Below, one piece after another: positions 14,725-46,527 of a stretch of 61,541 nt of DNA (position 1 is the first letter of the stretch; each line of letters opens with the position of its first letter). The notes beneath the pieces were generated by a model. The model saw only the letters and a list, made by a program, of their open reading frames with translations. It was not told the DNA's origin and made no database searches. Position numbers and translations under genes: made by a program. Origin of the DNA: Neolentinus lepideus HHB14362 ss-1 (taxonomy: Eukaryota; Basidiomycota; Agaricomycetes; Gloeophyllales; Gloeophyllaceae); assembly GCA_001632425.1 (NCBI GenBank), contig KV425582.1:268000-329540 (forward strand), read 5' to 3'.

Positions 14725-15240
14725 CTACCAATCCGTACCGGGGGCAGCCTCGCGCTTCCAGTCGGTCCCGGGCTCGGGCTCTCGACGCCAGTCGGTGCCC
14801 CTCCTCCAGTCTGTACCAGGCTCAGCCTCGCGCTTCCAGTCTGTCCCCCGCTTCCAATCGGTACCGGGCTCAGGCTCCCGGCGCCAGTCCGTGCCCCGCT
14901 TCCAGTCGGTACCACGCTTCCAGTCCGTGCCAGGCTCTGGCTCGCGTTTCCAGTCAGAGCCAGACCCTGGCTCGCGTTTCCAGTCGGTTCCACGCCTCCA
15001 GTCGGTATTACCCCGCTTCGCATCCTCCTGCAAGACATTGAGAATAATGATACAATAACAGAAGAGAAGGACGCACGATCGCGGTCCGTTCAACAAGAGA
15101 CGGATCTGCCTCTGGCGTCTATATCATAGATCAGGACGGTGAGAACGGAGACGGAGACGAGCAGGACGTACGGGGAGACCAGAGGCAAGGACGGCGAATA
15201 GGAGAATGAAGATGGCCAAGTAGGACTTTGAGAGGAACAT
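14725..15240 (-). CDS. Secreted repeat precursor with Kex2 sites, alpha-factor-like layout
   Basis: A three-exon gene encoding 137 residues. Exon 1 (15240-15172) is a signal peptide, MFLSKSYLAIFILLFAVLAS. Exon 2 (15118-15077) is a short pro-segment (TPEADPSLVERTAI). Exon 3 (15027-14725) opens with EDAKR and then carries 12 units, every one ending in Asp-Trp. The first 11 are followed by KR or RR and the last by the TAG stop. In order: GNTDW, GTDW, EPGSGSDW, EPEPGTDW, GTDW, GTDW, EPEPGTDW, GTDW, EAEPGTDW, GTDW, EPEPGTDW, EAAPGTDW. Both introns (53 and 49 nt) have GT-AG ends and phase 0, so the model reads cleanly. Dibasic sites are cut by the Golgi protease Kex2, and X-Pro/X-Ala leaders are removed by Ste13-type dipeptidases; I infer release mainly of GTDW. 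The units lack a farnesylation CaaX end, so this is not a classical basidiomycete lipopeptide pheromone. Receptor and function are unknown. Confidence 0.85.
14728..15012 (-). repeat. Twelve tandem peptide-coding units of two lengths
   Basis: Imperfect tandem repeat inside the last exon of the precursor gene. Basic units are 18 bp (GTDW plus a dibasic pair) and long units 30 bp (with an EPEP, EAEP, EAAP or EPGS leader). The DNA differs between units: all four Gly codons and three Thr codons are used for the same Gly-Thr. Confidence 0.9.
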
Positions 15241-23448: not shown

Positions 23449-23483
23449 CCCAGTGAAAATCGCGTCTATAACAGTCGATAGTA
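23449..23483 (+). repeat. Left terminal inverted repeat of the Tnp2 transposon
   Basis: Exact 35-bp inverted match to 31702-31736. The same sequence recurs at 24783, directly after the N run. Confidence 0.9.
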
Positions 23484-23839
23484 ACAGATAGTAGCCGATA
23501 ACCTGAGCGTGAACACACCGTTAACGACATTAAAATATAATCTGGTAATACAATAGAATTTTTTCCTTATCTGACGATACACATCGTTAATGATATATTC
23601 ACTGCATGTAATACGGTGGTAATAGATCATAATCGCATAGAAAATATCCGGTGCTGTGTCCTCTGATCTTTTCTTGATCTTTTCAGTTCGATAATACTTG
23701 ATACACATCGATTCATCAGAAGGTACGATACAAAACAATCTATAGTAAAATGTACAGCTTGTCCCCCTTCCCCTCACTGCCTCCACCCCATCCCATTCCA
23801 CCTCGTATCCACGTTCGGGCTTGAGTGAGTCACAACGGC

Positions 23840-24347
23840 CTAGGCTGATGTTGCAGTGCCCACCACGTTTTTCTGTACCATTCACGAGTCAGTGTAGTAT
23901 TCACAGTGCAGCGTAGCCTCAGAACTTACAATTTTCTTAGCACGAGTTGTAAGCTTCTGTTGTAGCGCGACATTAGCGGTAGCTTACAAAAATAAATGTG
24001 GACACTCACATTATATTCTTTACTATTCTTACTCAGAATGCCCCAGTGAAGCTTCCAGTCCTTCTCGCGACCTCCGGGATTTGCTTCGCACCACTCCTGC
24101 AATGCCAGGTTCCTGGTAATGTGATGAGCTCAAGTCTAATGACACCATTAGCTTACTTACTTAGGTGTATTGCCAAGTACTGGTGATACCATGACAATGT
24201 CATTGTCACCGTTGGTCCTCTGCCGTTTGGCTGAGGTCTTGGAAACACCTGAGGTCACAGCCGCATCAGGAGTGGTGGCAGTCGGAGCAGTGTTGGGAGC
24301 AACAGTGGCCAAAGTAATGGTGGCAGTAGAAGTAGCAGTGGTCGAAG
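23840..24347 (-). pseudogene. Cut-off copy of the transposase C-terminal exons
   Basis: This repeats the last exons of the transposase gene: the Ala/Thr-rich stretch, SVSKTSAKRQR-like basic run (here GVSKTSAKRQRTNGD), NLALQEWCEANPGG and the final TAG (23840-23842). The upstream part is lost in the N gap. It is probably an assembly or allelic duplicate, not a separate gene. Confidence 0.7.
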
Positions 24348-24782: not shown

Positions 24783-25685
24783 CCCAGTGAAAATCGCGTC
24801 TATAACAGTCGATAGTAACAGATAGTAGCCGATAACCTGAGCGTGAACACACCGTTAACGACATTAAAATATAATCTGGTAATACAATAGAATTTTTTCC
24901 TTATCTGACGATACACATCGTTAATGATATATTCACTGCATGTAATACGGTGGTAATAGATCATAATCGCATAGAAAATATCCGGTGCTGTGTCCTCTGA
25001 TCTTTTCTTGATCTTTTCAGTTCGATAATACTTGATACACATCGATTCATCAGAAGGTACGATACAAAACAATCTATAGTAAAATGTACAGCTTGTCCCC
25101 CTTCCCCTCACCGCCTCCACCCCATCCCATTCCACCTCGTATCCACGTTCGGGCTTGAGTGAGTCACAACGGCCTAGGCTGATGTTGCAGTGCCCACCGC
25201 GTTTTTCTGTACCATTCACGAGTCAGTGTAGTATTCACAGTGCAGCGTAGCCTCAGAACTTACAATTTTCTTAGCACGAGTTGTAAGCTTCTGTTGTAGC
25301 GCGACATTAGCGGTAGCTTACAAAAATAAATGTGGACACTCACGTTATATTCTTTACTATTCTTACTCAGAATGCCCCAGTGAAGCTTCCAGTCCTTCTC
25401 GCGACCTCCGGGATTTGCTTCGCACCACTCCTGCAATGCCAGGTTCCTGGTAATGTGATGAGCTCAAGTCTAATGACACCATTAGCTTGCTTACTTACTT
25501 AGGTGTATTGCCAAGTACTGGTGATACCATGACAATGTCATTGTCACCATCGGTCCTCTGCCGTTTGGCTGAGGTCTTGGAAACACCTGAGGTCACAGCC
25601 GCATCAGGAGTGGTGGCAGTCTGAGCAGTGTTGGGAGCAACAGTGGCCAAAGTAATGGTGGCAGTAGAAGTAGCAGTGGTCGAAG
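24783..25685. repeat. Second copy of the duplicated transposon end
   Basis: Near-identical to 23449-24347. Unlike that copy it continues without a break into the rest of the transposase gene. Confidence 0.9.
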
Positions 25686-28600
25686 CGGCAGAAGCAGCAT
25701 CAGAAGAAGCAGTGGTCAAAGCGGTGGTTGAAGTAGCGGTGATCAAAGTAGCATTGGAAGTAGCATCGGAAGTAGTGGTGGCAGTCCAAGCGGCAGAAGA
25801 AGCGTCAGAAGAAGTGGTGGCTGAAGTAGCAGTGATCGAAGCAGCAGCAGCAGTCGAAACAACAGCGGTCAAAGCAGTGGAAGTCAAAGGAGGAGTGGGG
25901 GTTGAAGAAGCACTGGGAGGGGTAGTGTTGCGAAGAACAGGTCGAGGAGGCAGGGGAGGAAGAGGTATAGTTGGACTAATAGCAGCCCTAGGGGTGATTA
26001 CACGTAAGTACAGCAAAGAGAAAGCGTTCAAGGGCTTACAGAGGATCAACAATCTCAAAGTCATCATCGTCATCTTCCTCTACCCGAGAGCGTTTGGATC
26101 TCTCTCTCTCTGAGCCCTCGTCAGCCTCATCATCACCAGCAGACCTCTTATGTGATGCTGCACTGGTGTCACCATCACCGTCAACCTCCTCGTCATCACC
26201 ATCCTCACCATCATCCTCACTATCCTCCTCTACCTCGTCATCATCTCCACAAGAAGCCCAGTTGAAGAGACCCCGCTGGATCCTGTTTCTGCGCCAAGTA
26301 GGGTAATTGTCAATAGCGGCCTGCTCAACCTTCCAAGAGTTTGCACAGAGACGGAGGACTGCAAAGCGGCTCTCAAGCTCTGACGCAAGCACTTGCCTGA
26401 GGTCCGCACTAGCACCGGTGCCCCATTTCCTAGGAAGTAAGCCCTTGTCCGACATACCAACCCACACGCCACGGAGCGCCTTCCGGATCTCGGTCCCCAA
26501 GTACCCGTCAATGGGTTCACCATTCTCGTATACCACATAGAGCATCTTCACATTAATACCCTGTGAGGAGCGAGAGCGCCCCTTCTTGCCCTTCGAAGCA
26601 GATGGATCTGTGACGCCGAGCAGTTCCTTCTTCTTTACAGTCCAGCTTCCCTTGTACCAGTAGAGCTGATCCAATTCAGCTTGAGTCATCTTCGCCGGGT
26701 CTGGGAAAGGTGCGCCACTGGGAAGGGGGGCCAGAGCGCCCACTGAATCATGCCCAAGTGCTCGGCCAAGCGTGTCAGCACTGTTGAGTGAATCTGACAG
26801 CTGGTCGTATGCCTTCCTGCTCAAGCATGTCATTAGTAGGCTCATTAGAATGCAGATATTGAACAATTACTTATAAGTTTCAGCTTCTACCCTCAATTTC
26901 ACGTTGTCTTCCTTGGCCTTGAGAAAGTCGAGTTGAACCTTTTGATATGCATGGTAAAGTTGGATATATGCACCATTTTTTGACTGACAGAGAGACAGAT
27001 GTGAGGCAGAAGCAATTACTTGAATTAGACCTCGCCAAACATGACTTTGCCATTGACCTCAATCTACAGAGCATCATAAGTGACCTTACATTCAAACAAT
27101 GGATAAGGTCTATACCTTCACGTTGCGAGATGTGCGAATCTTATTTGTTGGCTTCAAAAGCTCCTTCCAAGCAGATCTTGCTATCTGACCAGTAGGAAGT
27201 CGAAGACGTGCCCATCGTGTAACCTCCATCACAGGATCAGCAGATGGGCCGTTATGTTGATGCATATAGTCACCCAGAGCACGAGCCTCGGAATTGCTTA
27301 CAGGACGAGATGTACCATCAACAGCCCGCAAGAGAACATAGGAATCACCAATAGGGAGTGAGCCACGCGGGTGGATGTTCTTTGGTGGGACAAGATCAGG
27401 AACCATTGCCTTGAGCGCATTCAGCTGTGCTCGACGGACACCACGCTGCATGATATTAGCATACGGAAGCGTATCGGAGTGCATCTCAGCACCCATAATC
27501 TGTATAGCACCCTCGCAGGTGTACTGTGAACGGCAAATGTCAGGACCATGGCGTACAACTTCGGCAGGCAAATGAAGGACTGTATGAACAGAGGGTCGTA
27601 CAAAATGAAGGCGGCTCTTCTTGCGCTGGTAGTACAGGAGCTCGAAGTCTTGCACCCAGTCTATCAATGCTTGCTGTGCTGCCTGGAGTTCTACAATTGA
27701 GATGCGCTTCTGAAAGAGAATTCGAATCGCAGAAACAAGACGACAGAAGTGTTTCCAGTAATGCTTTGGTAGGATTTCATAAAAGACACCAGGGCCAATG
27801 ACGTAGAAATACTGCAAGAATTCAGTTGCCTTATATCCACTGTTGATCTTCTTTTCTGGGTTTCGTGGTGGTCGATCAAAGGAACCAGGAAGATATGGTG
27901 TTGCTGCAGCAACGGCAAGACCATGTTGCTTCCATGTTTCTCCGGTAAGACATATCCAGTCCCAGGTATTGTGATTATCTTCAGGATCACATTCAAACGT
28001 TCCACGCCAGAGCGGAATGAGGAGATCCGGGATATTAAGAAGTGGAAGATGCATTATATCAGTCGAAAACATGGATGGAACACCGAGAGAGCGTGGTAGC
28101 CCACTGAGGATACTAGGCCTACATATTCCCGTCTCCAAGCGACGGATCTTGTACTGCGTAGCATTGGGGGAAGTCATTACGTAGCGCAAACTGCTGGTAT
28201 ACTCTTGATTCGGGTTTCGACAGATCAGTGATGGGTCATCAAATGAAATGTCTGGATGGGTGCAGCCTTCAACAATATAATCTTCTTCAATCGGTTTAAG
28301 TCGTACAGGGAAGTATCGACTCTCGGGTTTACGCCGTCCGGGAAGTTTGCACCAGACCCGGCAACCACGTCTGCCCTGCGCTCCGACTAAGCCGCTGAGC
28401 AGAGCCATTGCTGGACCATCGGCAAGCCCCAGCAGAAAAAATGGTCTTGATATGAATGTTCGGTCAATTTTTGCATCCCAAATACGTAGCCCTTCATTCT
28501 GCAAGGCAGCGACATGGTGGAGACCTGGGAACATGAATGATTCGAGATGCTTTGGCTTGTTCGGACCTGGGATGAATCCACCGAAAAGGACATGGTGCTT

Positions 28601-29692
28601 CTTGTACCGCTGCTCGGGGTTGTGATCTGCTACCAGCCATATATACACCCAACAGTCAGAAGCCTTATATCGATAGAGTTGGGCACCATCAATAGAAAGC
28701 ATAAGAACCATGTCGTCAGGTCGAATGTCGCCTCGCTTGACAGCGTTAAGGTACTCTTTGCCGCAGAGAACATCGTCATAGAGTGAGACAGATCCTTTGT
28801 TCACCTTCAGCTGATCGACGAGCTCCTTTGTCTTCCTCTCACGATATCGCATATTGTCTGCCCCTTCTGGAGTTCGCCAAAGTGACTGAAGCTGCGGGCC
28901 AACTGGAATGGTATAGAACTCTTGACGAGGTACCTTCTTCTTTCTTGTGCTTCTCTGTAGGTCATACCGGCTCAGCCTGCAGGTCGGACACTGAGTTGCA
29001 TTCAACCAGAGCCCAGTATATGCTATGCACCCAGTTGGGCACATATGATGGATGAGGGGTACAATACCAGTCAGATCTTCAAGTGCGCGCATCGCCCGAG
29101 CAAAAGAGAGCATCTGAGAGTCCGGGTGACGCCGCATGTAGCTCTGATAGATGCTCGTGTAGATTGATTCAGCACCATAGCCGATCGAGATGAGAATATC
29201 AAGCGAGAAGCGTACATCAGGGTCAGTTATAGCCAGCTGCTGCTCAGGAGGGTTCCGAAGGCGTGCTGTATACTCTGGACCTAAGCTATTGTGCTCATCA
29301 CTCAGTAAGGCGGCTTTGAGTAGAGCGATAAATTCATTGTTTATCTTGCAGTCTTTGATACGAGACTCTTCTGTAAGGCCTGCGCCCGGGTCAAGATCCT
29401 CTGAGTCATCTGGTGGTGCAGCAAAGGTCGCAGAACCAGCAGAGTCTGGATCATTGTCAGCATCATCGAGGCTACCAGGATCAGGACGTTCTTCCCAAGA
29501 TGTCGCAGCCGTGGGGTCACCAGCATCAGCAGTAGAGTCATCAATAGACCCAGCGGAAGCATCCTGAGAGTCACTTTGAGCATCACTAGAGCGGTCACGA
29601 TCAGGATTCTGTGTTGTCCCTTCCTGAGAAGCGTCAAAGTCAATTGCGAAATCACTAGGCAAATTGGCATCATCTGGCAAGTCGATATCCAT
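25174..29692 (-). CDS. Tnp2-type transposase with acidic and Ala/Thr-rich tail
   Basis: The main exon (29692 to about 27115) encodes about 860 residues. It starts MDIDLPDDANLP with an acidic head. It then has a zinc-ribbon-like CPTGCIAYTG...CPTCRLSRY, the segment LMLSIDGAQLYRYKASDCW and FGGFIPGPNKPKHLESFMFP, then FFLLGLADGPAMALLSGLVG and MFSTDIMHLPLLNIPDLLIP. These are the core of basidiomycete Tnp2/Transposase_21 proteins; SIDGAQ and LADGPA are candidate acidic catalytic sites. Short exons (IEVNGKVMFGE, then SKNGAYIQLYHAYQ) follow, then KKAYDQLSDSLNSADTLGRA with a very acidic stretch, an Ala/Thr/Ser-rich stretch, NLALQEWCEANPGGREKDWK and an end at the TAG 25174-25176. All joins are GT-AG and keep frame. 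I merge these into one gene of about 1,400 residues; the tail could instead be a second gene. Confidence 0.8.
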
Positions 29693-31257
29693 AGCTTCAT
29701 TCTACAGATGCATTAGGTACAAATGGGAAAGCAATACTCGACGTAGTACTTACCTTGATAGCGGGAATATCTCCGCCTCTATTAGTACCAGAGTCACCGG
29801 GAATAGCTTGACCAGCAGCGTTCAGAGAGACGGTGACAGGCTACAACACACAACAACCACCAAAAACACCTAGAAAATGCGGAGGGAACTCCGTCTAATA
29901 GTGTCAGTAGTTGAAGGGCAGAAGGGTAAAGCTCGGGGGAGGTGAGGAATGCAAAACAGAACACTAAGTGGCACCGTATATCTCTTTGTGAGTAGACCCA
30001 GACGCTCTTCAACTCTTCTAGCTCCCTAACTCCCTTACTATACGTGTCTCGGCGCCGACTCAACGCTTCTCGGAGGGTTCTCGGAGCCGGGCTAGACCAG
30101 CTTGTCCTTTTCGGGGACTCGGACGAAAGTCGGACGATAGACTGACAGGTTCCTCCACGCCGGAGGACTTTGATGACGCGATAAGAGGGAACGCCGGTGC
30201 AGAAGACTCAAGAGAGAACGCAATAGGGATGATAAACGCAAAGGTAAACGCAAGACCTCACGCCGAGGTCTTATTAGAACGCAATTCGGACGCAACGAGG
30301 CTTTGAGATGTGAACTGTGAGGTAAAATTCGCTGCTGGAAAGGAATATACAGGACGCCTAAAGTACTAAGTGACCCGAAGTCTAAGAAACCGCTAAGTCC
30401 GAGACCGCCTAACGCTCCATGCGTCTACAATCAGAGAATACAACCAGAAATACGCCGCCGAGTCTCGCTAAACTCCCAAGCCGCTCGCCAATCGCCCGCC
30501 GCATACTGCTCTTATTCCGAAGCACTCTAGGCGGGTCAGGAACCGCCGCCCCAGGGAATATCCTTCCATCTTGAGCCCGTACAGCGCCTCGGTGCGTCCT
30601 GACGACTCGTGCTTGATGACCATCGCCTCGAACTTCATAAGGAGGGCTGACCGAGTGTTGCGACGATACCGGATCGAAACGGTGGCACACGGCATCCTAT
30701 CGTACGACGACCAATGACCGCCGAGTTATTGCGAGGTCGGTCGGAAGGTAAGATCAGCTGGTCTGCGTCAGGAAGGCTGATATGAGTGACTCAGCGTGTT
30801 TCGGCGCTTGATGGATGCACCGAGTGCTGCGACTCGCTGCCACGGAGAGAGTAGGCTGAGTTCCGGAGGTTCCGAGGATCGTCGTATCGTATGGAAGGGG
30901 CAGGGTGTTGAGTAAGCGTCGCCGATGCCATCGGTTCCGTCGTCCGAGCGCATAAGCAACATTCGACAACCTCGGCGTATCCTGAGTCATCGAATTGAGT
31001 CCCGGTATAGCACCGACAGGCATGCGGCGCGGCGAAGTGTCCACTGCTCGGCGGTGACGTCAGTATCCGGCGGTGTGCATCCTCGGGTATCGCCGACGTA
31101 TTGAGTCGTAGCTCGGTGAACGCTCGGAGATTCGTCGGTGGTCTCGGCACTTTCCGCATCGTGTCGAACACGCCGAAAACGCGTTTTCAGAGGCTAGCGA
31201 CGCTGGAGGCCTATCAACGGGCAAGGATACTGCAGGTTTCTTTCCCTGCGTGAGTTT
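29693..31257. other. Non-coding part of the transposon
   Basis: About 1.6 kb between the transposase start and the small Cys/His frame. It is rich in CG dinucleotides and in short TCGG/CCGA words, unlike the flanking coding parts. Open frames are short. It may be a 5' leader, a large intron, or subterminal transposase-binding sequence. Confidence 0.4.
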
Positions 31258-41624: not shown

Positions 41625-43267
41625 ATGTTTTTCTGCGCTATCTCGGGTGAAGTCCCTCAGGATCCTGTTGTTTCTGCAAAGTCTGGTCATGTGTATGAGC
41701 GTCGTCTCATTCAGAAGTACATAAACGACAATGGCACAGATCCTGTGACCGGGGAGAAGTTGGAGGAGTCCGACCTCATTGCAGTCAAAGCTAGTACGTC
41801 CGTTTCACATATTCTAGTGATACAGCCGCCGAGTAATAATGGTCAAATAGGCCCTAATGCTGCTCCTCCACGAGCACCAGCGCAGACATCTATTCCGGCT
41901 CTGTTGCAGACTCTTCAGAACGAGTGGGACGCGCTTGTATTGGAAACGTTCGCTCTTAAGCAACAGTACAATGCGACGCGTCAGGAGCTGAGCTATTCTC
42001 TCTATGCACAGGATGCAGCTACTCGTGTTGTGGCGCGTCTGATGAAAGAGCGCGACGCTGCCAGAGAGTGAGTGCACGCCTTTTGCAATGACAGGCTATA
42101 CTCAATAGGCGTTTCCTCAGAGCTCTTGCGAGCGTACAAGCATCGATGGGCATTGCACCATCCGCGGGATTGGGTGGTGATGTCGAGATGAGTGGCGAGG
42201 ATGAAGCAACTGGTGGCCTTCCAGCGGCTATCGTGTCTCAGATTGACGAGACACACCAGACTCTTTCCGCTGCTCGCAAAAAACGCAAGGCCCCCGCTAA
42301 CTACGTAACACCCGCCGAAGTCAAGACTTTCAAAGCCAAGCACACCATTCCTTCCCTCCATTCCGCCTCCCCTGCTGGTATCACATCCTTGGCTGTCTCT
42401 CGCGCGGATCCATCCCACTTCTTGACTGGTGGTAACGATAAAATTGTCCAGCTCTATGACAGGACTACGGACAAAGTCTTAGCCACACTCAAAGGTCACA
42501 CGAAGAAGATCAATCACGTAGCCTTCCGCGAAAAGGATGGCGAACCTACACTGCTACTCTCAGGCGGTGCGGACAAAATCGTCAAGATCTGGTCACACGA
42601 TGGCGCCTCTGGCGAGTATCTACCGAAGCATACCATTAGGACGCACAAGGGAGAAATCACAGGCCTTGTTGTACATCCCACATCCACGATTCTTGCGCTG
42701 TGTTCCCATGACAAATCGTACTCGCTCCACGACTTGACGAACTATAAACAGGTTTTCTTGTCCGCTCCAGCCGATGAACCCTTGACGTCTCTTTCAGTCC
42801 ACCCTGATGGCATGCTTCTGGCTCTAGGTACTCCGGCTTCTACCATTCAAATTTATGATATACGTTCCGGCGGCATCGCCGCCACCTTAACGCCTGAGAG
42901 AAGCACACCGTTCACGGTACACACGACAAGTTTCTCAGAAAACGGCTATCACCTCCTTGCGCCTGATTCCTTGTCCTCCATGGCAATCTGGGATCTCCGC
43001 AAGCCCAAAATCGCGCACTCGATACCCTTGGGTGATGATTTCAAGATCAATAAGGTATCGTATGACTACAGCGCACAATTGCTTGGTGTTGCTGGAAGTG
43101 AGGGTGCGCGGGTGTACGCTCATAAGTCATGGGAGGAGCTGGCTAGTTTCGAGGAGGGAGGTGAGGTCAGCGACCTGGTCTTCGGTCACCAAGGCAAGGA
43201 GATATGGGGTATCAGTGGGAGGGAAGTCCGAGTTTGGGGTTCGGACGAAGCGATGGAGATTGCTTGA
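41625..43267 (+). CDS. PRP19: PRP19, U-box/WD40 ubiquitin ligase of the spliceosome
   Basis: The core subunit of the Prp19/NTC complex, which activates the spliceosome and builds ubiquitin chains; 533 residues. The N-terminal U-box reads MFFCAISGEVPQDPVVSAKS...YERRLIQKYI...DPVTGE. A coiled-coil tetramerisation region follows (LLQTLQNEWDALVLETFALK, then RQELSYSLYAQDAATRVVA). After a 41-nt intron (42068-42108) come RALASVQASMG, a linker with KKRKAP and the WD40 domain, for example FLTGGNDKIVQLYDR, LKGHTKKINHVAF, LSGGADKIVKIWSHDG and LSVHPDGMLLALGT, ending VRVWGSDEAMEIA. The ATG is at the exact family position. Confidence 0.96.
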
Positions 43268-43773: not shown

Positions 43774-46527
43774 TCAAGACCACGATGTTGGCCCGAACCC
43801 GTTGACTGGATCAGGCGTCTTCAGAGACAGGCCCATAGCGTCTGCGGTGTTCATCCAGACGTTATTGCCCCACCATGGCAGGTTGATGCCGCCCTTTGGC
43901 AGGGACAACGCGAAGAAGATGATAAGCGTGCCCACAGCGACGCCCGAGTCCAGCGCGGCGGACAAAATGTAGTTGTACCGCATCCACCAGCGGAAGTGGA
44001 AGCGGCGCATCACATACTGGAAGATGAAGCCCGTGAGTGCCCATGCGGAGTAGTTGATGCCGCTCGCAGGAGGAAGCGCGGTGACCCCGGCGAAGAAGAC
44101 GGGCATGTTCACGTAGCGCCACAGAGAGTGGGGGTAGCGGCGCGCAAGGTAGTAGAACGGAATGGGGGCGATGGCGCCGATGAGGAAGAAGAACACGAGT
44201 GGGTAATACAGCGCGCTGGGGGAGAAGAATCGCTTCGGGCCGACGCCACCCCAAATGATGGAAGCCGTCGCGAACACGTTGGACGAGGGGCAAGTGAACC
44301 CGTGCGGCTGGTCCGCCTGGCAAATATCAGGAATGTTCGAGAACATCCACGACTGGACAAGCACAACAACGAAGCAACTGACGACGCTCGCGACCGTCTG
44401 CGCAACGAACATTATCCGCGGGGGCACCTTCATGTAATGGCCAAGCTTGAGATCACCCGAGAACGTCGTCGCCTGCGACACCGTGATATACCCATACGTC
44501 TTGAACAGCATCATCGCGACCGGCCGGCCAGGGAGCATATAGCCCACGATGATCTCGACGAGGGTGTTGATCGGGATCTGCTGGTTCGTGATCGCCTGGA
44601 TCATCGCGGCGGGGAGGGTGAACACGGCGGCGATGAGTAGGGCGATGATGTACGCCCAGGTGGGGAAGTGCGTCGGGTTCGTCTCGATGGCGATGACACC
44701 GAGGACGAAGGCCACGAGACCCAGGACGCCGTACCAGTATGCGGGGACCTCCTTGTAGGCCAACATGAGGCGCGAGTGGACGTCCCGCTCGTCGCGGATC
44801 GTGCGGCGGAATTGGCGAGCAATGTCACGACGGTACCACACTACCAGATGCCTATCAGGTTCCGATCATCAATGAAACTCTAGGGCAGGAGACTCACGGA
44901 AAGTGTGCACGAAAATAGACGTGAAGATGGCGAAGGACGGGCCATATGAGACGGCAAAGGTCGCGGAGAGGAACATGGGTGAGTATGCTTTGTACTTCGC
45001 GAGGTCGAACTCGCCGTTCGTGACGATTGCAGAAACATTGTACTGCATGCCGTAGCGGTCGAATGCACCAGAGGAAGACATGGGCAGGAAAGCCGAGAAA
45101 AAGACATTCTTATCTGTAGAATTCCTAGGATCAGCGTGCGAATAAAAAGATGGTTGGAAGGAAACTGACAGTAAATGATGGGTGTGAGGATCCAGAAGAA
45201 AAAGATGAAAGAGATGAGAGTATTGGCTTCTGCCCACCACTAAGCGAAGAATATCAGCACGGGTTAAATGCCGCGATCCGAGTAAAATACTCACGGGGGA
45301 AACCAAGGGACTCCCAACATACGCGATCATACTCCAGTCAAACGTAAACAAACCCATACCCAATCCCGAGAGGGTCCCAAACAGCTGGTTAACAACCACA
45401 TTATTGGGCGCAATCCAGCACACCCAGTTGAACACACTCAATCCCGTCCACAAGTACCCAGGCACCCAGTACCAGATCAAGCTACAGCAGAACGCCACCA
45501 GGAAGAACTTCTCCCTGCTCCAGTGCCTCCTCTCGCGCCTGCCATAATTCTTATGCAGCGTGTTGAACAGCGCGGCATTGACCAACGCGCCGGGCCAGAT
45601 CATCGAGCTCGGCCAGACGACGAACTGCCTGATCAGGCCCGCAAACGCGTACCCGATGACCTGCGAGGAGATGCACAGCAGGAACTGGTAGCCGAGCCCC
45701 CAGTTCTGGTTGTAGAACACGCGCTGCGTGAGGATCGTGTCCGTCGCGTACGCGCCCATCTGCGTGACGTTGGCCATGACGGTGATGACGGTGTGCTCCT
45801 TGATATTGAAAGGCCCGGGGTTGAGTGACATAGAGAAACGGCCGAGTGTGAGACGTTTCGTGGGGAGGGCCCATTCGAGGAATTTGCCGGCGGGGAGGGC
45901 GGTAAGCTGGATGACGAGGGAGGTAATGAAGACGGAGGGGTCTAAGGGAGGGATTAGTGCGTGGCGGTGAGGATGAGATGAAAAGGAGACGTACATCGTA
46001 AACCGAAGAGTTGGTTGACGCCCGGGACGATGATGGAGACGAGGATACCCAGGAACCACATCCGGAATGTGTTGACGGGCATTAATGGGTCGTCGATGCT
46101 CGCTACAGCGGCCCGCACCTCGGGGTATGGCGATTCACTGAGAAAAGTCAGATTATAAAAGACACAGGGCACATCGCAGAACGTACTCGTTGTATTCAAT
46201 GCCGCTCTTGAAACTAGGCGTACCGGTCGTGCTTCGGTCACTGTCATCTTGGAACTCGGTGTCGACCTCTGTCGTGCCGGTGAATCCTTCAGAGGTCGAC
46301 ATGGTCCGGAACTTCTTCTCGTGGGCATCAAAGCCGCTAGAGACGGATGAGCTCGTAGGCACCACGGTTCTCAGGTCGTAATTGGGATCGTTAAGGTGTT
46401 CCATAAGGATATCATCGACATCTTCTGGGACGTCGGGCGCGGTCCTGCGGAAACGGAACTGAGGGAGGCTTGAGAGATAGCTGGATGCACCGGTGGACCT
46501 GGCCTCCATGTCGTGTGCTGGCTGCAT
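43774..46527 (-). CDS. OPT family oligopeptide transporter
   Basis: A polytopic membrane transporter of about 790 residues that takes up small peptides or related compounds (OPT family: tetra/pentapeptides, glutathione, metal chelates) with protons. The N-terminus (MQPAHDMEARSTG) is cytosolic and acidic. ESPYPEVRAAVASIDDP is the OPT signature before the first membrane segment, and NPGPFNIKEHTVITVMANV corresponds to the NPGPFN-KEH motif. Membrane segments follow through NQNWGLGYQFLLC, TFDWSMIAYVGSPL and KTYGYITVSQATTFSGDLKL, ending NGFGPTSWS at the TGA 43774-43776. Several short introns interrupt the gene. It is divergent from the dioxygenase gene, with 1.24 kb between start codons. The substrate is not readable from sequence. 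Confidence 0.9.

Follow-up and report, generated by a model that had tools for sequence, protein, structure and literature searches.

A repeat-precursor gene with two predicted introns and its paralog

The window analysed here, a stretch of 61,541 nucleotides from the genome of Neolentinus lepideus HHB14362 ss-1, carries on its minus strand (15240-14725) a gene of three exons and two GT..AG introns, whose reading gives a precursor of 137 amino acids (Table 1). The hydrophobic core of the first exon, LAIFILLFAVLA, has a mean Kyte-Doolittle value of 3.28, which by hydropathy resembles that of a signal peptide. After the first dibasic site, all 12 segments end in Asp-Trp (DW) and are closed by KR (seven), RR (four) or the stop codon (one). 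These are the internal repeats separated by Kex2 sites that define Kex2-processed repeat proteins (KEPs), 11 of the 12 units carrying KR or RR. Our reading of the gene and our count of segments agree with a preliminary description of the locus in its coordinates, its signal-peptide-like start, and its 12 DW units, of which 11 end at KR or RR and one at the stop.

Skipping of exon 2, which would leave a single long intron, is also in frame, and hence the junction between signal peptide and repeats is independent of this exon. The model with two introns appears preferable, since the paralog described below has the same architecture. Alternative reading frames across the repeat array are likewise open, as expected from unit sizes that are multiples of three. 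Judged from its sequence, the locus is a real, intact and conserved-looking gene.

Table 1. Features of the window gene (positions in the window) and of its paralog (position in the assembly).
Feature	Position	Strand	Basis
Start codon ATG	15240	minus	exon 1
Exon 1: start codon and signal-peptide-like sequence MFLSKSYLAIFILLFAVLASGLP	15172..15240	minus	translation and hydropathy
Intron 1: 53 nt, GTACGT..ATATAG, phase 0	15119..15171	minus	splice-site reading
Exon 2: 42-nt pro-segment exon, TPEADPSLVERTAI	15077..15118	minus	57-nt counterpart in the same place in the paralog
Intron 2: 49 nt, GTGCGT..TTGCAG, phase 0	15028..15076	minus	splice-site reading
Exon 3: EDAKR, then 12 DW-ended units from 15012	14725..15027	minus	translation
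Stop codon TAG	14727-14725	minus	directly after the last unit
Second DW-KEP gene, predicted product ASDW	G000:C19:206703-206041	minus	protein search of the assembly

When the precursor protein was searched against all 168 contigs of the assembly (33.8 Mb), a single further locus came up, on contig C19. The first exon of this paralog is hydrophobic and is followed by a pro-exon of 57 nt and the exon with the repeats, and the introns of 59 and 58 nt lie in the same places and in the same phase (0/0) as those of the window gene. The paralog contains 16 DW units, the last of them in a terminal QPASDW directly before the stop codon. Fifteen of the 16 segments after its first dibasic site end in DW, the sixteenth being EE only, and an extra ASDW unit stands before the first dibasic site, behind a single Arg. 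By pattern scan, the 33.8-Mb assembly has 24 matches to neighbouring DW-[KR]R-like pairs (12 in the paralog, 10 in the window gene, one on C5 and one on C38), and the same pattern read backwards gave 0. The C38 pair was judged a chance match, a different frame there reading by eye like another protein, as was the C5 match, because it is one lone pair.

The repeat units look old

Between units, the core codons of the window gene differ 22 times at position 1, 11 times at position 2 and 116 times at position 3; the corresponding counts in the paralog are 55, 55 and 234. Over the four core codons, pS and pN are 0.758 and 0.055 in the window gene and 0.874 and 0.102 in the paralog, where the pN of 0 for the D and W codons is given by construction, because the units were chosen by DW. 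The fair figures are those of the first two codons alone, which played no part in this choice, and they yield a pS/pN of 0.732/0.131 for the window gene and 0.757/0.24 for the paralog, the latter pN being inflated by the use of both TCN (11) and AGY (5) codons for Ser. The protein cores are almost constant within the window gene, and the excess of silent differences indicates that the units look old, that their likeness is maintained at the protein level and that recent copying is unlikely.

Predicted trimming to tetrapeptides

Trimming by Kex2, Kex1 and Ste13 was simulated by cutting after dibasic sites, dropping the basic ends and then removing X-A or X-P pairs. Under these rules 10 of the 12 units of the window gene give GTDW, the product that the preliminary description had thought likely, and the other two give GNTDW and GSGSDW. 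The Ste13-type spacers EPEP, EAEP and EAAP bring units that differ in length to the same predicted tetrapeptide. Applied to the paralog, these rules turn 14 of the 15 DW segments after its first dibasic site into ASDW and one into ESASDW. The spacers bear the signature of Ste13, with X-A or X-P dipeptides in 11 of 12 cases in the window gene. Over both genes, A or P stands second in 30 of 32 dipeptides and first in one, and all 18 spacers are of even length. This phase reached the permutation floor of p = 1e-5 (100,000 shuffles; hand-typed spacers, the final four residues of each unit counted as core, and the first unit, GNTDW, excluded with its odd extra residue), and is as expected for a Ste13-type enzyme.

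Both a kexin and a Ste13-like enzyme are encoded in the genome. The kexin, on C12, has S8 and P-domain exons, the former matching kexin 1ot5 at 5.9e-71 and furin at 6e-52, with a membrane segment seen by eye downstream of the P domain. On C62 lies a protein combining DPPIV_N and S9 domains; inspection by eye places a membrane segment close to its N-terminus, and the protein could be vacuolar. The S10 carboxypeptidases, with 36 exon matches in the genome, are resolved to the level of the S10 family and not to Kex1. Many of these matches fall within 67 kb (G000:C28:205854-272543), likely a tandem expansion.

We propose that removal of the signal peptide would come first and that Kex2 would then cut after KR and RR. 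A Kex1-type carboxypeptidase would take off the basic residues, and a Ste13-type dipeptidyl aminopeptidase would strip the E-P, E-A and A-P pairs, whose phase is observed and whose cutting in this species we infer. Ten of the 12 units would end up as the tetrapeptide GTDW, linear and with its C-terminal Trp free, and the paralog would enter the same route to give ASDW. The Kex2-type precursor put forward earlier is supported. That the gene encodes a secreted KEP of alpha-factor-like layout, processed as proposed, is in our view probable, and it is highly probable that such processing yields mainly GTDW.

Relatives in other fungi and a possible linkage to Prp19

We found 29 related proteins, of which those with a named source are nearly all from Agaricomycetes and one is from an ascomycete. 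Phmmer gave 12 proteins, 11 of them with DW units (the remaining one, P0012, has none and was therefore dropped before the family counts), and a profile search gave 28, of which 18 were new with respect to phmmer. Ten relatives had gone into building the profile, which makes their E-values in the profile search circular, and two of the ten, P0010 and P0011, had phmmer E-values of just 0.38 and 3.4; among the 18 profile-only proteins, P0148-P0150 have E-values of 0.02-0.64. Proteins with DW[KR]R repeats, for which a search of relatives had been proposed, do therefore exist, and the refutation by their absence from relatives falls away.

Trimmed cores include GTDW and NTDW in Rickenella (Hymenochaetales; gene model without a signal peptide), GNSDW in Pluteus and GQTDW in the ascomycete Rhizodiscina, as well as LTNADW and ADW. 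A stop codon stands directly behind DW in 10 of 31 proteins, including the window gene and the paralog, which argues that a free C-terminal Trp is a natural end. Among Trp-ended units 153 of 172 close in DW, and 28 of 31 proteins are mostly DW, figures that do not gauge the frequency of DW among KEPs because the queries were DW-rich. Leaders were compared for 18 of the 29 relatives, 11 being omitted. The window leader reached z above 4 with P0002, P0006, P0008, P0137 and P0143, and the paralog leader with P0001, P0006, P0137, P0140 and P0142. This suggests two putative leader lineages of DW-KEPs, P0006 and P0137 fitting both leaders.

The window also holds a Prp19 gene (ORF 42092-43267), about 26 kb from the DW-KEP, whose product is 91% identical to Prp19 of Heliocybe sulcata (Gloeophyllales), the next best match being at 80%. 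Both genes were assigned to one contig in Blastosporella zonata (Prp19 C0991_008819 and DW-KEP C0991_008822, contig of 266,899 bases) and in Tricholoma furcatifolium (H0H92_003883 and H0H92_003887, respectively, contig of 118,918 bases). The shared contig was deduced from equal contig size, in a comparison of 22 of the 29 relatives with 62 of 120 listed Prp19 proteins in which two agreed. Four species had both proteins in hand; the pair is linked in Blastosporella and Tricholoma, whereas in Amanita thiersii and Auriscalpium vulgare the proteins found sit on contigs other than that of Prp19. These data suggest that DW-KEP and Prp19 may form a conserved locus, although the two linked species are Agaricales of one suborder. 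P0011, on the same contig as Prp19, has a z of just 1.4 against the window leader, and hence its orthology rests on linkage.

Comparison with described precursors

The view of the preliminary description that this would be an undescribed class of precursor is not supported. PMC6339444 already describes Basidiomycota KEPs with Ste13 signatures, and PMC9769878 reports the detection by mass spectrometry of the linear products SGTGEASAADW from Lentinula and SGVAADW from Pleurotus. The window precursor is a KEP with a Ste13 signature and as such belongs to a class in print in these two papers. Like the -AADW KEPs of PMC9769878 (Pleurotus ostreatus 1091723, P. eryngii 1439342 and Lentinula edodes 2599), it is a (here predicted) secreted precursor with KR/RR-separated repeats and a DW-ended core, and it shares X-A/X-P Ste13 motifs with those of Pleurotus. 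On the other hand, their detected peptides are of 7-11 residues and end in AADW, whereas four residues, GTDW, are predicted here. That paper also mentions, with reference to its Fig. S10, further homologs that carry Ste13 motifs and whose C-termini are similar; close relatives of the window gene may be among them.

The putative alpha-type pheromone-like KEPs of Basidiomycota in PMC6339444 also combine an alpha-factor layout with a Ste13 signature, a likeness judged on layout, and the fungi that have them do not mate by alpha pheromones. Ascomycete alpha-factor precursors share with the window gene a signal peptide or signal-peptide-like start, a pro-segment, Kex2 sites and X-A/X-P spacers, but the core is here a tetrapeptide and the genome gave no STE2 match with a model that had no working control. 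Ustilago Rep1 is likewise a basidiomycete precursor of Kex2-processed repeats; its peptides are of 37 residues and lack a Ste13 signature in the account of PMC6339444, so that the predicted four residues are shorter, as had been stated earlier. Precursors of the ustiloxin type (dikaritins) have Kex2-processed repeats and very short cores too, but the window gene has no UstYa gene nearby and no Tyr in its core. What is new is this member itself, a predicted product of four residues, the pairing of GTDW with ASDW and the possible linkage to Prp19. Among the literature matches listed for the string GTDW, none was by title a fungal peptide, and among those listed for DW peptides, no title or abstract start gave a function or receptor; nor do the parts of PMC9769878, PMC6339444 and PMC7329392 drawn on here give one for alpha-factor-like basidiomycete KEPs.

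Possible functions of the peptides

We infer that the product is most likely a linear secreted signal and not a mating pheromone. Our main reading, to which we give a probability of about 45%, is that the fungus senses its own peptide, as a non-sexual signal. PMC9769878 reports no phenotype after deletion of six KEPs in C. cinerea, within the conditions that its authors tried; this argues against a vital self-signal in the case of those KEPs.

It is possible, if more tentatively, that the same precursor and linear peptide act on other organisms, be they competitors, bacteria, animals or plants. The authors of PMC9769878 favour a role towards the biotic environment because their kep deletions were phenotype-free, yet their synthetic peptides showed no antibacterial effect against the strains that were tried. 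Furthermore, the cores are nearly constant within the gene and GTDW recurs in Rickenella, whereas peptides engaged in an arms race would often be diverse.

We consider it decidedly improbable that the gene encodes a RiPP precursor of the ustiloxin (dikaritin) kind, whose product would be cyclised or modified in some other way. Ustiloxin-type precursors are KEPs as well, UstYa genes exist in the genome (11 exon matches), and in PMC7329392, 17 of 76 KEPs that resemble six putative alpha-pheromones of basidiomycetes have DUF3328 genes close by, the Pleurotus AADW precursor 1091723 being one of these six. However, the UstYa match nearest to the window gene (C32:190393-192121) is about 90 kb away, and there is none inside the window or on the paralog contig C19, so that the UstYa/DUF3328 neighbourhood of a dikaritin is missing there; the GTDW core offers no Tyr, and linear forms are what PMC9769878 detected for the AADW peptides.

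A mating pheromone of this fungus is very improbable: the layout is alpha-factor-like, but the 23 STE3-type receptor exon matches lie on C88 (20) and C6 (3) and the KEP genes on C32 and C19, and the STE2 model, again one without a working control, matched nowhere in the genome. As had been noted in setting the gene apart from CaaX pheromones, the protein terminus is GTDW, and the CaaX motif expected of a basidiomycete mating pheromone is absent. The STE3-type cluster on C88 (G000:C88:49518-106500) is probably a pheromone-receptor mating locus. Least credible of all is that an open repetitive stretch mimics a precursor with no gene present: the array is open in other frames too, but the silent-site excess is in the precursor frame, the paralog is spliced the same way, relatives occur in other orders and the window leader resembles that of Pluteus P0006.

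Returning to a non-sexual signal, we advance with rather low confidence the wider proposal that free C-terminal Asp-Trp peptides are old, mushroom-wide non-sexual signals borne by at least two gene lineages, that the lineage with the LP-type leader (GTDW here) has been kept near Prp19 across Gloeophyllales and Agaricales, and that a putative receptor reads the C-terminal DW. The locus offers two paralogs, very short predicted products and clear processing rules, making synthetic GTDW and ASDW directly testable, and it is a clean case for probing the role of a fungal KEP group that lacks a functional explanation; the Prp19 linkage is a possible orthology handle for DW-KEPs.

Other genes and repeats in the window

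Scanning 30 of the window's ORF pieces for domains identified kinesin, MCM, RINT1, WD40/Prp19, TPR/SGTA, OPT, TauD and MFS domains, together with weak protein-kinase and carbonic-anhydrase matches, and no peptide-modifying enzyme among these pieces. The OPT-type oligopeptide transporter (43774-46134) is located some 28 kb from the KEP. Proteins of the OPT type transport short peptides, and uptake of GTDW by this route is an idle possibility. Between the KEP and Prp19 sits an 863-codon ORF (27110-29701, minus strand) matching Transposase_21 (tnp2) with an E-value of 1.5e-7. Two near-identical direct copies (421 of 423 bases), at 23466-23888 and 24800-25222, are about 1.3 kb apart and are possibly the ends of a mobile element.
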